A stretch of DNA of 51,052 nt, taken from NCBI GenBank assembly GCA_024742285.1, contig JANSYR010000026.1, positions 1-51,052 on the forward strand, in the 5' to 3' direction. Source of the DNA: a bacterium (lineage in GTDB: Bacteria > Myxococcota_A > UBA9160 > UBA4427). Positions 26,611 to 32,929 of the stretch are shown piece after piece (within the stretch, counting starts at the first letter, position 1; the number at the start of each line of letters is the position of its first letter). The notes beneath the pieces were generated by a model. The model did not search any database. It was not told the origin of the DNA and worked only from the letters and a program-made list of their open reading frames with translations. A program made the position numbers and the translations under genes.

Positions 26611-27228
26611 CTAGCGAAGCGTCGAGATCACGCCGGTCACGGATCCCCATCCGATGCAGCGCGTGAGGCGCGACCGGGTCGACGCGGGCACCCGGGAGAG
26701 ATCCCGATTCCAGGGCCGATCCATGAGCGCGACCGGCAGGTCGAACTCCTCGACGAGACGGACGGCCGTATCCAGGCTGTCTTCGACGGCGAAGTCGAAC
26801 TCCATCGTCCGAAGCTCGTCGAAACGGAGCGCCGGCAGGCCCGCTTCGTTCCAGGTCGGCCGCGACCACTTGTCGAGGTGATGGAGGGCCGTGTGGGCCA
26901 CGTCGTAGCGCGCGAGCCAACGTCGCGAGGCGGCGTTGGACGCGGGCGGACGGCCCGTCACCAGATGGACCTCGTGCCCGGCTCCGTGCCAGTCGCCGAC
27001 GGTCCGCACGCCTTCGCCGACGGGCTCGATCCGCTCGAGGACTTCGTCCTCGTGGGCGCGCGCCATGAACGCCCGGATCTCCGCCTCGTCGAGCGCGAAG
27101 GACTTCTCGAGATCGAAGTGCCGGACCTCCTCGACCTCGACACGGCGGCCGTGGGTCTCGTCGAGCAGATCGATCAGGGACTCGATCGTCCGCGCGAGGA
27201 CGTCGTCGATGTCGACGTAGATCCTCAC
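26611..27228 (-). CDS. HAD-superfamily phosphatase, 5'-nucleotidase-like
   Basis: 205 residues. Motif I is at the N-terminus as YVDIDDVLA, with the nucleophile Asp and general acid Asp two residues apart (D6, D8). Motif II is VTGRP, the conserved Lys lies in LDKWSRP, and motif IV is FAVEDSLDTA. This layout matches 5'(3')-deoxyribonucleotidase-like HAD proteins. Its GTG start overlaps the pabB stop in a GTGA junction, so translation is probably coupled. It could be a phosphatase of the folate pathway, such as for dihydroneopterin phosphate, or a general nucleotidase; this is inference from the overlap only. The gene converges on the PanE-like gene, 7 bp apart. Confidence 0.75.
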   Translation of the reverse strand: MRIYVDIDDVLARTIESLIDLLDETHGRRVEVEEVRHFDLEKSFALDEAEIRAFMARAHEDEVLERIEPVGEGVRTVGDWHGAGHEVHLVTGRPPASNAASRRWLARYDVAHTALHHLDKWSRPTWNEAGLPALRFDELRTMEFDFAVEDSLDTAVRLVEEFDLPVALMDRPWNRDLSRVPASTRSRLTRCIGWGSVTGVISTLR

Positions 27229-28805
27229 GTGGCGCGGGGGCGCGCGGCGAGCGCGGCCAGCGGCGCCTTGGCCTTGTCGAGGGATTCGACGTACTCCGCC
27301 TCGGGCTTCGAGTCGGCGACGATCCCGCCGCCCACGTGGAGGTGGGCCTGCGTTCCGTCGTGGACGATCGTCCGGATGACGACCGACAGGTCCAGTCCAC
27401 CGCGGACGTCGAAGTACCCGAGCGCCCCGGCGTAGACCCCGCGTCGGACGGATTCGAGCTCTTCGAGGAGCTGAACCGCCGCGAGCTTCGGTGCGCCGGT
27501 CATCGAGCCCGGCGGGAAGGTCGCGCGCACGAGATCGAAGGCATCGCGTCCGGTCGCCAGCTCGCCGACCACGGTCGAGACCATCTGGAAGACCGCGGCA
27601 TAGGTCTCGATCTTCATGAGCTCCGGCACGTCGATCGAGCCGGGCTTGCAGACCCGCCCGAGATCGTTCCGCACGAGATCGACGATCATCAGGTTCTCGG
27701 CGCGATCCTTCAGGCTCGCGGCCAGATCCCGAGCGAGCCGGTCGTCCTCTTCCGGGTCGGCGCCGCGCGCCCGGGTGCCCTTGATCGGGCGACTCTCGAC
27801 CCGCCGGGCCTGGTCGACGCGCAGGAACCGCTCCGGCGAACTCGACAGGATCGTCGCCTCCGGAAGCGAGAGGTAGGCGCCGAAGGGCGCCGGATTGTGG
27901 TCGCGAAGCCGCTGGTAGAGATCGAAGGGCGGTGACGAGACCGGAACCGAGAGGCGCTGGCTGAAGTTCGCCTGGTAGACGTTCCCCTTCCCGATCTCCT
28001 GGAGAACCGTGTCGACCGCTTTCACGTAGCCACTCGCGTCGACCGTCGAATCGATCTCGAGCTCGAGGGGCGGGAGCGGCTTGGGAACACGCTTCGGTGT
28101 CGGCCCCTCGGAGAGGATCCACTCGATCCGGGCCGCCACCTCGTCGACCACGTGCCGCGAGCGGGCGATCGCCGTCTCGCGCGGTCCGGCGCCGTCGCTC
28201 GACCGCGCGTCGCCGAAGCCGAGACCGAAGACCCAGAGGCGCTCCGCTTCGTGGTCGTAGGCGAGCACGCGATCGACGAAGGCCAGGGAGAGATCCGGGA
28301 GACCGACGTCGTCGGGATTGCCGAAGTGCATCCGCTCTTCGATGGCGCTCCCGAGCTCGTAGCCGAAGTACCCGACCGCGCCGCCCAGGAACGGCAGGTC
28401 GAGCCCCGCCGAGAGTCCCGCGACCTCGTGCCATCGTCGATTGCCGGAACGACTCGAGGTCCGCGTGGAGTACACGAGGGAGTCCGCACGCGGAAGGAGC
28501 GCGCGCGCGGTCTCGATCGGATCGGCTTCGACGCGGTGGTACCCGCGATCGAGGCCGGCGCGCACGCCTCGCTGGACGTCGATCTCGACGAGCGCGTCGC
28601 CGTCTCGTTCGACGCGCGCCGACAGCCGCAGGTAGGGGTCCGTTCCGGCGAAGGAGGTCCGACCCAGCCGGCCCGCTTCGAGGGCGCTGTCGAGCCACCA
28701 GAAGCCCGGATCCGCGTGCAGACCATCGACGATCCGGAGCCACTCGGCGGCCTGGGCGGGCCGGTCGAGGGCCGCGAGGGCGATTCGTTCGATGGGGTGG
28801 AACAT
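27225..28805 (-). CDS. pabB: aminodeoxychorismate synthase component I
   Basis: 526 residues of the chorismate-binding family. It aminates chorismate to 4-amino-4-deoxychorismate on the way to 4-aminobenzoate and folate. PIKGTRARG identifies PabB rather than anthranilate synthase: the Lys in PIKGT is the PabB nucleophile, where TrpE has Ala. LMIVDLVRNDLGRVC, FPPGSMTGAPKLAA and the late HVGGGIVADSKPEAEY are the other conserved blocks. Start ATG 28805 has GGAG 7 nt upstream. No pabA or pabC is in the window; the downstream overlapping gene is a HAD phosphatase. Confidence 0.9.
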   Translation of the reverse strand: MFHPIERIALAALDRPAQAAEWLRIVDGLHADPGFWWLDSALEAGRLGRTSFAGTDPYLRLSARVERDGDALVEIDVQRGVRAGLDRGYHRVEADPIETARALLPRADSLVYSTRTSSRSGNRRWHEVAGLSAGLDLPFLGGAVGYFGYELGSAIEERMHFGNPDDVGLPDLSLAFVDRVLAYDHEAERLWVFGLGFGDARSSDGAGPRETAIARSRHVVDEVAARIEWILSEGPTPKRVPKPLPPLELEIDSTVDASGYVKAVDTVLQEIGKGNVYQANFSQRLSVPVSSPPFDLYQRLRDHNPAPFGAYLSLPEATILSSSPERFLRVDQARRVESRPIKGTRARGADPEEDDRLARDLAASLKDRAENLMIVDLVRNDLGRVCKPGSIDVPELMKIETYAAVFQMVSTVVGELATGRDAFDLVRATFPPGSMTGAPKLAAVQLLEELESVRRGVYAGALGYFDVRGGLDLSVVIRTIVHDGTQAHLHVGGGIVADSKPEAEYVESLDKAKAPLAALAARPRAT

Positions 28806-28946: not shown

Positions 28947-29801
28947 TTGAAGAAACGCTGCATCTATCACGCGGGCTGTCCGGACGGATTCGGCGCGGCG
29001 TGGTCCGTCCGCCAGGCGTGGGGCGACGACGCGTGGTACATCGCGCGCAACCACGACGATCGCGTCACCCTCGCCGACCACGAGGACGCCCTCGTCGCCT
29101 TCGTCGACATCGCCCCGGCGGAGGACGAGCTCCGCGCGCTCGCGGACGTCGCCGCCCAGGTCCTGATCCTCGACCACCACGTGACCGCCCGGGATCGCCT
29201 CGCGAGCGACCCGAGCGTCGTCAACGAGTACGAAGCCGACGGCCACGTCCTCCACTTCGACATGGGCCACTCGGGGTCCGTGCTCGCCTGGCAGGCCTTC
29301 CATCCGGAGACCGAGACGCCGGACCTGCTCCGCTACATCGAGGACCAGGACCTCTGGAACTGGGCCCTGCCCGACTCCGAAGCGGTGAACGCCGCGATCG
29401 CTTCCTATCCCCGCGACTGGGAGACCTGGGACCGCCTCGCCACCTGGCCGGTCGAGCGGCTCGTGGCCGAGGGCGAGCCGATCCTGCGCGCCAACCGGAT
29501 GGAGATCGCGCGCCGCCTCGAGCACGTCCGCCCGATCGCCCTCGGAAACGAACGGATCGAAGGCGTCAACGCCTCGATCAACCGGTCCCGAATCGGCCAC
29601 GAGATCGCGAAGCGTGCCGCCTACGGCAAGGAGTGGGGGATCGTCTATCGGGTCGAGGGGGCAGAGGTCTTCGCGACGATCTACTCGATCGGCGACCTCG
29701 ACGTGTCCGAGGTCGCCGTGCGCTACGGCGGCGGCGGCCACAAGAACGCGTCGGGGTTCCACGTCCCGCTCGAGACCTGGCTCGCCGACTTCGTCGTCTG
29801 A
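28947..29801 (+). CDS. DHH/DHHA1-family phosphoesterase
   Basis: 284 residues. The N-terminal DHH domain shows YHAGCPDGFGAAW in place of the HADADG motif, then Asp in FVDIAP and the family signature LDHHVTA. The C-terminal DHHA1 domain carries RYGGGGHKNASGF, the substrate-binding loop. Family members are Mn-dependent phosphodiesterases acting on short oligonucleotides, cyclic dinucleotides or DNA ends. The HxxCPDG variant belongs to a subgroup often annotated only as DHH phosphoesterase. Start TTG 28947 gives a family-like start (KKRCIYH). It diverges from pabB. Confidence 0.83.
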   Translation: MKKRCIYHAGCPDGFGAAWSVRQAWGDDAWYIARNHDDRVTLADHEDALVAFVDIAPAEDELRALADVAAQVLILDHHVTARDRLASDPSVVNEYEADGHVLHFDMGHSGSVLAWQAFHPETETPDLLRYIEDQDLWNWALPDSEAVNAAIASYPRDWETWDRLATWPVERLVAEGEPILRANRMEIARRLEHVRPIALGNERIEGVNASINRSRIGHEIAKRAAYGKEWGIVYRVEGAEVFATIYSIGDLDVSEVAVRYGGGGHKNASGFHVPLETWLADFVV

Positions 29802-31053: not shown

Positions 31054-31518
31054 ATGAGTCTCGTCCACACCGAAGTCATGCAGCTGAACGCCACCCCGGA
31101 GCAGGTCCGCGCCTTCATCATGACGCCCGACCGCATCCTCGACTACTTCCCGCAGCCCGTGGAGGGCGGCGTCCTCGAGCCGGGCCGCGCGATCTGGTGC
31201 CGGGGCGAGATGGGCGTGTCGATGCTCGAGGTCGTCGAGGCGGAGACGACGGACGCGGTCGTCGTCGTGAAGGTCTCGACCGCCTTCGGTCTCGAGGCGC
31301 CGTTCACGCGCGAGCGGATCGAGGAGAACACGGTCTTCACGATGGTCGAGGACTGGGCGCTCGAGGCGAAGGGCGGCGGCACGGAGCTCACGAAGTCCTG
31401 GCGCGACGTCCAGTCGAAGGGACCGGAGCCCTTCCCGATCGCCGATGCCGTCAAGGAGGGCGCGATCCACGAGAGCGCCCAGCTCGTCGAGGGCTGGAAC
31501 GCGGCGGCGGCCGGATGA
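31054..31518 (+). CDS. SRPBCC (START-like) domain protein
   Basis: 154 residues, one Bet v 1-like helix-grip domain. The N-terminal strand-helix MSLVHTEVMQLNATPEQVRAF and TPDRILDYFPQPVEGGVLEP are the common start of polyketide-cyclase/dehydratase-type SRPBCC proteins. These bind hydrophobic ligands in a deep pocket; some are enzymes and others carriers. Start ATG 31054 has GAGGA upstream. It diverges from the SDR and precedes the DAHP synthase leader region, from which it is separated by a promoter of its own. No ligand can be named. Confidence 0.78.
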   Translation: MSLVHTEVMQLNATPEQVRAFIMTPDRILDYFPQPVEGGVLEPGRAIWCRGEMGVSMLEVVEAETTDAVVVVKVSTAFGLEAPFTRERIEENTVFTMVEDWALEAKGGGTELTKSWRDVQSKGPEPFPIADAVKEGAIHESAQLVEGWNAAAAG

Positions 31519-31586
31519 GACGGCGCTCAGGCGCGCCTCGGCGCGCTCGCTTGCCCGCTCCGACGGCCGGGTGTATACACCCGGCC
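31519..31586 (+). promoter_or_regulatory. promoter of the DAHP synthase attenuator transcript
   Basis: A -35 TTGCCC at 31551-31556 and a -10 TATACA at 31574-31579 are separated by exactly 17 bp. The predicted start point, about 7 nt after the -10, is at or next to the ATG of the leader peptide at 31587. No ribosome-binding site fits between, so the leader mRNA appears leaderless. The -10 lies inside a palindrome (separate entry). The rest of the stretch after the SRPBCC stop shows nothing further. Confidence 0.6.
31565..31586. promoter_or_regulatory. 22-bp perfect palindrome overlapping the -10 box (probable operator)
   Basis: The half-site GGCCGGGTGTA is followed directly by its exact reverse complement, centred on TGTATACA and ending one base before the leader ATG. 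A dimeric repressor bound here would cover the -10 and the start point. TGTATACA cores are typical of some GntR-family operators; the regulator itself is not identified in the window. Confidence 0.6.
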
Positions 31587-31700
31587 ATGGCGGCGACCTT
31601 CTTTTCGTATCCCTTCTTTATGGACGCCCGGGGCTGGTATGCCTTTGGCGCCGCGGAAGGGGCCGTGGAAGGATGCGCCCGTCTCAGAGCAGAGGTCTAG
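31587..31700 (+). CDS. leader peptide of DAHP synthase, rich in Phe/Tyr/Trp
   Basis: A 37-residue peptide. Its first 20 residues, MAATFFSYPFFMDARGWYAF, contain eight aromatic residues (five Phe, two Tyr, one Trp), the end products that control the first step of aromatic synthesis. Three of the five Phe codons are TTT and both Tyr codons are TAT, although the downstream DAHP synthase uses TTC and TAC throughout. The remaining 17 residues are ordinary. It ends with TAG at 31698-31700, 50 nt before a strong terminator. The peptide is probably not functional itself: its translation would sense charged aromatic tRNAs. Confidence 0.75.
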   Translation: MAATFFSYPFFMDARGWYAFGAAEGAVEGCARLRAEV

Positions 31701-31758
31701 ACGCGAGAAGCGCAGGACAGACCGAAGAGAAGACGGCCACCGAAGCTTTCACGGCCCC
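31651..31758 (+). promoter_or_regulatory. antiterminator and competing hairpin of the aromatic attenuator
   Basis: GGGGCCGTG (31659-31667, inside the leader reading frame) is exactly complementary to CACGGCCCC (31750-31758), the left arm of the terminator, so the two structures exclude each other. The same segment can also fold locally: CCGCGG (31651-31656) with CCGTGG (31663-31668) around AAGGGG. A ribosome stalled at Trp17-Phe20 (31635-31646) would cover the 5' half of that local hairpin and free the antiterminator strand. GGGGCCGT recurs in the terminator right arm, as expected for competing strands. Confidence 0.6.
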
Positions 31759-31791
31759 GAGAGGACAGACCTCTCGGGGCCGTTTCTTTTT
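31751..31791 (+). terminator. intrinsic terminator (attenuator) before DAHP synthase
   Basis: A perfect 14-bp stem (31751-31764 with 31770-31783), loop ACAGA, followed by TTTCTTTTT (31783-31791). It is the clearest rho-independent terminator in the window and the only one with a T-tract. It lies 62 bp before the DAHP synthase start, where it can only act on transcripts entering that gene. Confidence 0.88.
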
Positions 31792-31852
31792 CGGGCCTCG
31801 CCGACGCCGGAAAGCACGGACGGCGCGGCCGAGACGAAGCACGGAGATTCCG

Positions 31853-32929
31853 ATGAGTTCCCTGGAAGACCGCAACCTGACGGCGATCGACCCCCTGCCC
31901 ACTCCGGCAGAGCTGAAGACCGCCCATCCCATCTCGACGAACGGGGCGCGGACGGTCCTGCGCGCCCGGACGGCGATCCGGGACGCGATGCACGGACGCG
32001 ATCCGAACCGCCTCGTGGCGATCGTGGGCCCTTGCTCGCTCCACGACCCCGAGGCGGCGATCGAGTACGCGCAGCGCCTGGTTCCGCTGGCGAAGGAGCT
32101 CGAGGGCGAGCTGATCGTCGTGATGCGGACCTACTTCGAGAAGCCGCGGACGACCGTCGGCTGGAAGGGGCTGGTGAACGACCCGCGCCTCGACGGCTCG
32201 TGTCACGTCGACGAAGGCCTCGCCCTCGCGCGGCAGCTGCTCCTCGAGGTCAACGACCTGGGCCTCCCCTGCGCGACCGAGTTCCTCGATCCGTTCGCGC
32301 CGCAGTTCCTCGCCGACGCGATCGCCTGGGCTGCCATCGGTGCCCGCACGACCGAAAGCCAGACCCACCGCGAGATGGCGAGCGGTCTGTCCATGCCCGT
32401 CGGGTTCAAGAACGGAACGGACGGGGGACACCAGGTCGCGATCGACGCGATGACCGCTTCGAGTGCGCCGCATTCCTTCCTGGGGGTCCGCGCGGACGGG
32501 ACCGCAGCCGTCGTCAAGACCGCCGGCAACCCCGACACCCACGTCGTGCTGCGCGGCGGGGGCGGCCGTACGAACTACGACCGCGAGAGCGTCCTGGCCG
32601 TCGCCGAGAAGCTCGACAAGCGCGGGGTCATGGTCGACTGCTCCCACGGCAACTCGAAGAAGGACCCCGCCCTCCAGGGCGAAGCGCTCCGGGACGTCGC
32701 CCGGCAGATCCGGAACGGCTCGAACGACGTCCTCGGGATCATGCTCGAGAGCCACCTCGAAGAGGGGCGCCAGGACTGGAAGCCCGGCAGGGAGCTCCGG
32801 TACGGAGTCTCGATCACCGATGCCTGCATCGGCTTCGAAGAGACCGACGGCCTCCTCCGCGAGCTCGCCGCGTCCGTCCGGAGCCGGCGAAGCGGGCGCG
32901 TCGGACGGCGCGTGATCGACGCGGCCTAG
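31853..32929 (+). CDS. 3-deoxy-7-phosphoheptulonate (DAHP) synthase, class I (AroG/F/H type)
   Basis: 358 residues, the normal length of class I-alpha enzymes. It condenses phosphoenolpyruvate and erythrose 4-phosphate in the first step of the shikimate pathway. Motifs: LVAIVGPCSLHDPEAAIEYA, MRTYFEKPRTTVGWKG, the metal and substrate residues in GARTTESQTHREMASGLSMP, VGFKNGTDG, and MVDCSHGNSKK. The N-terminal segment that forms the allosteric site in E. coli paralogues is present, so feedback control is possible. Start ATG 31853 has GGAG about 7 nt upstream. Which amino acid inhibits it cannot be told. Expression should depend on the leader/terminator upstream. Confidence 0.93.
   Translation: MSSLEDRNLTAIDPLPTPAELKTAHPISTNGARTVLRARTAIRDAMHGRDPNRLVAIVGPCSLHDPEAAIEYAQRLVPLAKELEGELIVVMRTYFEKPRTTVGWKGLVNDPRLDGSCHVDEGLALARQLLLEVNDLGLPCATEFLDPFAPQFLADAIAWAAIGARTTESQTHREMASGLSMPVGFKNGTDGGHQVAIDAMTASSAPHSFLGVRADGTAAVVKTAGNPDTHVVLRGGGGRTNYDRESVLAVAEKLDKRGVMVDCSHGNSKKDPALQGEALRDVARQIRNGSNDVLGIMLESHLEEGRQDWKPGRELRYGVSITDACIGFEETDGLLRELAASVRSRRSGRVGRRVIDAA

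Follow-up and report, generated by a model that had tools for sequence, protein, structure and literature searches.

A predicted aromatic amino acid attenuator conserved upstream of DAHP synthase in a class of uncultivated bacteria

A ribosome-mediated transcription attenuator almost certainly precedes a DAHP synthase gene in the DNA studied here, because its parts recur, with matching compensatory changes, throughout a class of bacteria. The analysed stretch, called the window below, is 51,052 nucleotides long, has 70% G+C, and lies within the 6.5-Mb genome G000. Of the 33 orthologous DAHP synthase genes with an aromatic leader ORF and a terminator ahead of them, 32 belong to one class. The parts are conserved, they co-vary, and they are linked exclusively to one of two DAHP synthase paralogues. 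A stalling attenuator at this gene had been proposed from the window's letters alone, and the conserved and co-varying leader, antiterminator and terminator support that original prediction, whose coordinates all hold.

Results

Parts of the attenuator in the window

The window contains the following elements, all on the forward strand.

31551 to 31579, + strand: promoter-like site by consensus match, with TTGCCC (31551-31556), a 17-nt spacer, TG before the -10, and TATACA (31574-31579)
31587 to 31700, + strand: leader ORF of 37 codons, MAATFFSYPFFMDARGWYAFGAAEGAVEGCARLRAEV, from ATG at 31587 to TAG at 31700, read from the sequence
31625 to 31650, + strand: putative switching hairpin of the 1:2 type, 31625-31628 with 31647-31650 and 31630-31634 with 31641-31645
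31650 to 31673, + strand: 12-nt in-frame tandem duplication (GCCGCGGAAGGG / GCCGTGGAAGGA), private to this genome
31659 to 31671, + strand: antiterminator segment (segment 2), pairing with segment 3 (31746-31758) over 13 bp with G-U, 9 of them exact and consecutive
31746 to 31764, + strand: segment 3, in which 31746-31758 pair with the antiterminator segment and 31751-31764 are the terminator left arm
31770 to 31792, + strand: segment 4, the terminator right arm (31770-31783) and the U-tract (31784-31792)
31853 to 32929, + strand: DAHP synthase, class I alpha (AroFGH type), 358 aa, the presumed regulated gene

The enzyme matches PF00793 with 279.9 bits and TIGR00034 with 477.6 bits against a cut-off of 173.2. 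The leader is a short ORF rich in codons for the products of the pathway and lies upstream of a biosynthetic gene of that pathway. As first described, it has eight aromatic residues in codons 1-20 (F5, F6, Y8, F10, F11, W17, Y18 and F20). The window has 792 short-ORF starts over its two strands, and no other one reaches this number, the runner-up having six.

Between the leader ORF and the gene lies an intrinsic terminator (31751-31764 with 31770-31783), and the perfect 14-bp stem with a U-tract reported earlier is borne out at 31751-31783. It has 14 perfect pairs, a loop of 5, the tail TTCTTTTTC and a folding energy of -30.8 kcal/mol, and it is the only terminator in this 70% G+C window with a stem of at least 11 pairs. 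The segment GGGGCCGTG at 31659-31667 matches the reverse complement of CACGGCCCC at 31750-31758 exactly, as had been claimed; the antiterminator itself is longer than these 9 nt, for 31659-31671 pairs with 31746-31758 in a helix of 13 bp (-26.7 kcal/mol, G-U allowed). Of 5000 dinucleotide-shuffled leaders, 63 also have an exact 9-nt complement, which alone is therefore only mildly unusual. Unlike that complement, the conjunction of the parts together with their conservation is beyond chance.

Might the terminator merely end transcription of the upstream gene, the aromatic ORF being a chance frame? Terminators between co-directional genes are ordinary, and the SRPBCC-like gene upstream, which ends at 31518, is on the same strand. 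The terminator, however, lies more than 230 nt past the stop of that gene and downstream of the promoter-like site. What is more, the neighbour varies by genome, and yet the leader, the terminator and DAHP synthase remain linked: in G006 the gene directly upstream is a DHH-type gene, which in the window is found at 28947-29801 with other genes intervening. The aromatic codons are also kept in register with the antiterminator, and the leader ORF and the antiterminator are kept with compensatory change. We therefore consider this explanation extremely unlikely.

Distribution among relatives and paralogues

How far does the arrangement extend beyond the window? An enzyme profile (A1) was searched over 80 genomes of the order. 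Its scores fell into two clearly separate sets, 27 orthologues above 520 bits and a paralogous group at or below 500 bits, and several genomes have members of both. All 27 orthologues have the terminator, whose core is GCCCCGAG or a variant of it; 26 also have an aromatic-rich leader ORF, and the 27th has unread bases at that place. Five more attenuated DAHP synthases were found in a second order of the class. The device also precedes a divergent DAHP synthase copy in G015, which is of the window's own family, and the DAHP synthase of a metagenome genome labelled Myxococcales (L009). On an rpoB tree the window's genome and its order-mates form one clade among Myxococcota, Desulfobacterota-type and Binatia genomes.

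The paralogues served as a control. One of 40 paralogue upstream regions was positive, namely that of G015, which the tree places in the attenuated clade; the control count is thus 0 of 39 sampled regions, one of them truncated where its contig stops. The second DAHP synthase of the window's genome (L161) is among those that lack the device. Of 61 genomes, 15 contain the exact stem GCCCCGAGAG-N-CTCTCGGGGC, each of them a single time, and in all 15 it lies ahead of this DAHP synthase gene, including a case at a contig end (G083) that was checked. Outside the class, the device was absent from 14 DAHP synthases of the same phylum (G168 and G192 of the same enzyme clade, and 12 others) and from Nitrospirota and Binatia DAHP synthases of the same enzyme clade. 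Among trpE/pabB-type chorismate-binding enzymes and pheA in 12 genomes, it was found at 0 of 41 loci except for one trp-like candidate in G030.

Co-variation of the pairing segments

Co-variation was measured on an alignment of 33 leaders (A2), and in this alignment over related genomes the aromatic codons, the terminator and the antiterminator are conserved with compensatory changes. In the terminator 89% of pairs are kept, and 10 of the 14 pairs have changes on both sides somewhere. There are 35 double-change cells against 10.0 in shuffles, and none of 500 shuffles was as high. For the antiterminator, whose pairing with the terminator left arm excludes the terminator stem, 81% of pairs are kept, and the covariation score is 0.155 against 0.111, again with 0 of 500 shuffles as high; its pair and pair-type counts are not clearly above shuffles (41 and 52 of 500). 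Since segment 3 must pair with both segment 2 and segment 4, compensatory changes fall in three places.

A further measure compares each leader with its own left arm. Cognate pairs give -19.6 kcal/mol and swapped pairs -17.1 kcal/mol, a gain of 2.5 kcal/mol that none of 20,000 permutations equalled. When the leaders were shuffled one by one the combined p was about 3e-20, a value that is overstated as the relatives are not independent. The variants of the antiterminator can be read directly: CGGGGC/GCCCCG in most leaders, CAGGGC/GCCCTG in L109, L124 and L009, CGGGGT/ACCCCG in L129, and GGGCTCGG with CCGAGCCC in L122. In L210, L211 and L217 the best antiterminator found has just 5 bp.

Aromatic codons and their register

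Of the 33 leaders, 32 have codons for every one of Phe, Tyr and Trp. When codons are counted from the one holding the first conserved G of the antiterminator, the aromatic share over the 33 leaders is 79% at codon -10, 64% at -8, 82% at -4 and 73% at -3, and it drops to 9% at -2 and to 6% or less later. The leading edge of a ribosome lies about 12 nt past the first base of the A-site codon. With codon -4 in the A site, the ribosome edge would thus reach just to the start of the antiterminator.

Does one leader then respond to all three amino acids? That it reads all three, as originally suggested, holds for its anatomy in the 32 leaders, and the use of all three as signals is what we infer from it. 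It is possible, though somewhat doubtful, that the attenuator is a true one with a single effective signal (Trp at codon -4, or Phe) and that the remaining aromatic codons are passengers. Trp stands at codon -4 in 18 of 33 leaders, and Phe is the commonest leader residue (15% of leader residues), as such a single signal would have it. Against it, the three residues are retained together in 32 of 33 leaders across two orders, and the leaders of L113 and L135 have Phe-Phe at the stall position where others have Trp.

The choice among synonymous codons is also biased. TTT and TAT are enriched in the leaders relative to the DAHP synthase genes of the same genomes (odds 13 and 9; for TTT, 59 of 127 leader Phe codons versus 9 of 147 in the enzyme genes), and both codons are rare in these G+C-rich genes. 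This excess in the 33 leader ORFs may tune ribosome speed.

Local hairpins and a private duplication

The original prediction had the antiterminator segment hidden in a local hairpin whose 5' half is 31651-31656. That sequence, CCGCGG, can indeed pair with CCGTGG at 31663-31668, but the hairpin is private to this genome, because it is the product of a 12-nt tandem duplication; the putative switching hairpin, which is conserved in kind among relatives, lies just upstream and encloses the Trp codon. In the window its loop TGGTAT would be formed by the Trp17-Tyr18 codons (hairpin 31625-31650). Most relatives have a hairpin with Trp or Phe codons in the loop or the 5' arm and a 3' arm that extends into the antiterminator, and it is formed in changing sequence: CCGGGGC-TGGTTT-GCCTCGG in L116, GGGGGT-TCTTT-ACCTCC in L113, CCCTGG-TTCGAGA-CCAGGG in L124 and a CTGGTGG-CCC-ACCGG-type hairpin in L129. 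A count over fixed alignment columns was dropped because the register of this hairpin shifts among species, and per-sequence folding was used. Folding over the 33 loci gives a mean z of -1.19 (p = 9e-6), while the window sequence alone gives z = -0.05, which is not significant.

The duplication lies within the leader ORF and copies the antiterminator segment. Its two copies, 31650-31661 and 31662-31673, are identical at 10 of 12 positions, the first having drifted to GGCGCCGCG, and the nearest relatives are without it. The duplication puts Phe20, the last aromatic codon, 15 nt ahead of the antiterminator in the window, versus about 8 nt in most relatives; with this shift, a ribosome stalled at any aromatic codon would leave the antiterminator segment clear. 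The duplication hairpin probably supplements the conserved hairpin or takes over its task.

Promoter and start of the leader

Transcription of the window's leader is predicted to start at about 31585-31587, at the leader ATG, the -10 ending 7 nt ahead of this codon. The promoter-like site of the window outscores 100 of 100 shuffles. Across the 33 loci the best promoter-like site outscores shuffles as well (Wilcoxon p = 8e-6), many of the sites being weak, and at about half of the loci it ends 6-8 nt ahead of the leader start codon. A Shine-Dalgarno sequence was sought at the leader starts and is absent in the window leader and in most of the 33 loci. Because the predicted -10 sits 6-8 nt off the start codon and Shine-Dalgarno signals are mostly absent, the window leader ORF is probably leaderless.

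Discussion

Proposed mechanism

From this arrangement we infer translation of the leader, stalling, termination, readthrough and a response to each of the three amino acids. RNA polymerase would begin at or beside the leader ATG, and a ribosome would load on the leaderless or nearly leaderless transcript and trail the polymerase. With charged Phe-, Tyr- and Trp-tRNA ample, the ribosome would pass the aromatic codons, the antiterminator segment would be held by the ribosome or by local hairpins, 31751-31764 would pair with 31770-31783, and transcription would end at about 31790. If one aromatic tRNA were uncharged, the ribosome would stall at the aromatic codons and open the hairpin that holds them. 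The stall would free 31659-31671 to pair with 31746-31758, no terminator would form, and DAHP synthase would be made. What, then, would keep the antiterminator closed in the replete state? The leader stop codon is 27 nt past the antiterminator segment, and a ribosome halted there would leave the segment uncovered. The replete state must therefore depend on the local hairpins or on a closely trailing ribosome.

Could the device sense something other than aromatic supply? One candidate is a general slow-down of translation, by antibiotics or cold. Leader-peptide attenuators can answer to inhibitors, and the rare codons TTT and TAT are enriched here; such leaders, however, are without amino acid bias, while here an aromatic bias goes with a gene for aromatic precursors, and we find this reading very unlikely. 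Another is an attenuator that binds a protein or ligand (T-box, riboswitch or TRAP-like), with an incidental ORF. Pairs of terminator and antiterminator are common to these classes as well, but Rfam (amino acid leaders, T-box, riboswitches) gave nothing credible: no family reached the gathering threshold in the window, and hits of the leader at E up to 10 were at chance level only. What is more, little is conserved besides the aromatic codons, the antiterminator and the terminator, and such a binding device has hardly any likelihood. Stalling on aromatic codons stays our reading of the attenuator. That it goes further, being a class-wide leaderless attenuator that works as an OR gate, responding when Phe, Tyr or Trp is short, and that is the principal control over entry to the shikimate pathway, is a proposal for which we hold belief and doubt to be evenly balanced. 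If the OR gate is true, one switch does the job of the three separately regulated DAHP synthases of enteric bacteria.

Relation to known systems

The closest known case is aroR-aroF of Corynebacterium glutamicum, an attenuator with a Phe-Tyr-Phe leader before DAHP synthase (Neshat et al. 2014, as described in PMC11802643; also PMC4046766). Going by these literature descriptions, which are the only basis of the comparison, the two systems share an aromatic leader before DAHP synthase, ribosome-mediated transcription attenuation, and control of one of two DAHP synthases. They differ in that C. glutamicum is an actinobacterium with Phe-Tyr-Phe, whereas here Trp is kept in 32 of 33 leaders. In Sinorhizobium meliloti the trpL ORF is leaderless and its transcript starts with the ATG (PMC7298713). 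The trpL-trpE(G) system resembles ours in attenuation and in a leaderless leader ORF (here probable), but it reads Trp only, belongs to an alphaproteobacterium and precedes anthranilate synthase. For Shewanella, a report describes a predicted structure before aroF and cites an old suggestion of a Tyr-tRNA attenuator, and an actinobacterial survey gave no conserved RNA structures ahead of Phe or Tyr operons.

The E. coli pheL-pheA and trpL-trpEDCBA attenuators resemble it in the alternative pairings 1:2, 2:3 and 3:4, of which the first is putative here, in the U-tract terminator, and in the control codons, which lie within or beside the 5' arm of the 1:2 hairpin. Each of them, however, reads a single amino acid at a terminal-branch gene, while here the gene encodes the first common enzyme, and, unlike in E. 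coli, the pheA- and trpE-type genes of the 12 genomes searched are without an attenuator, the G030 candidate apart. In the ilvGMEDA and thr leaders of enterobacteria several related amino acids are read by one leader. These are multi-amino-acid leaders like the present one, but with branched-chain or Thr/Ile codons.

The device is thus a new example of a well-known mechanism. The claim that it had no description in this kind of lineage stands, in that no report of such an attenuator there was found in a literature whose coverage was incomplete, most subscription journals lying outside it; attenuation of DAHP synthase as such had already been described in C. glutamicum. It places classic leader-peptide attenuation at the first aromatic step across an entire class of uncultivated bacteria formerly counted among the Deltaproteobacteria, and in the literature searched an actinobacterium was the only established case for DAHP synthase. 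A single leader that retains all three aromatic residues ahead of the first common enzyme is a natural arrangement for monitoring the pathway as a whole. The aligned family also gives a testable consensus (codon register, antiterminator and terminator) for annotating other genomes.

Other loci

About 3 kb from DAHP synthase, at 27225-28805 on the - strand, the window has a chorismate-binding enzyme of the aminodeoxychorismate/anthranilate synthase component I kind; no attenuator was found ahead of its coding frame. A similar chorismate-binding enzyme gene lies close to the attenuated DAHP synthase in G006.

The trp-like candidate in G030 (contig C1, locus L285) lies at about 550-675 on the reverse strand. 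It has the leader MVLAAHRAVFGWWRSPIG, the terminator GAGCCGCCTCGAACAGGCGGCTC with a U-tract, and GGCGGCGGG beyond the leader stop, which could be an antiterminator. Its downstream gene, a chorismate-binding enzyme with a 766-aa frame, is probably a fused anthranilate synthase, and the other genomes examined are without this candidate. In an Anaeromyxobacter metagenome genome (L032) the DAHP synthase groups in the tree with gamma- and betaproteobacterial ones, which suggests that the gene was transferred or wrongly binned. In L079, a metagenome genome with the label Anaerolineae, the region 197-107 nt ahead of the DAHP synthase start has a leader-like ORF, MSRYFSFFSWYGYFAAGQVERAVVRPRDV, and a long hairpin rich in G+C whose U-tract is poor, with no clear antiterminator; it is a possible independent case of an attenuator.
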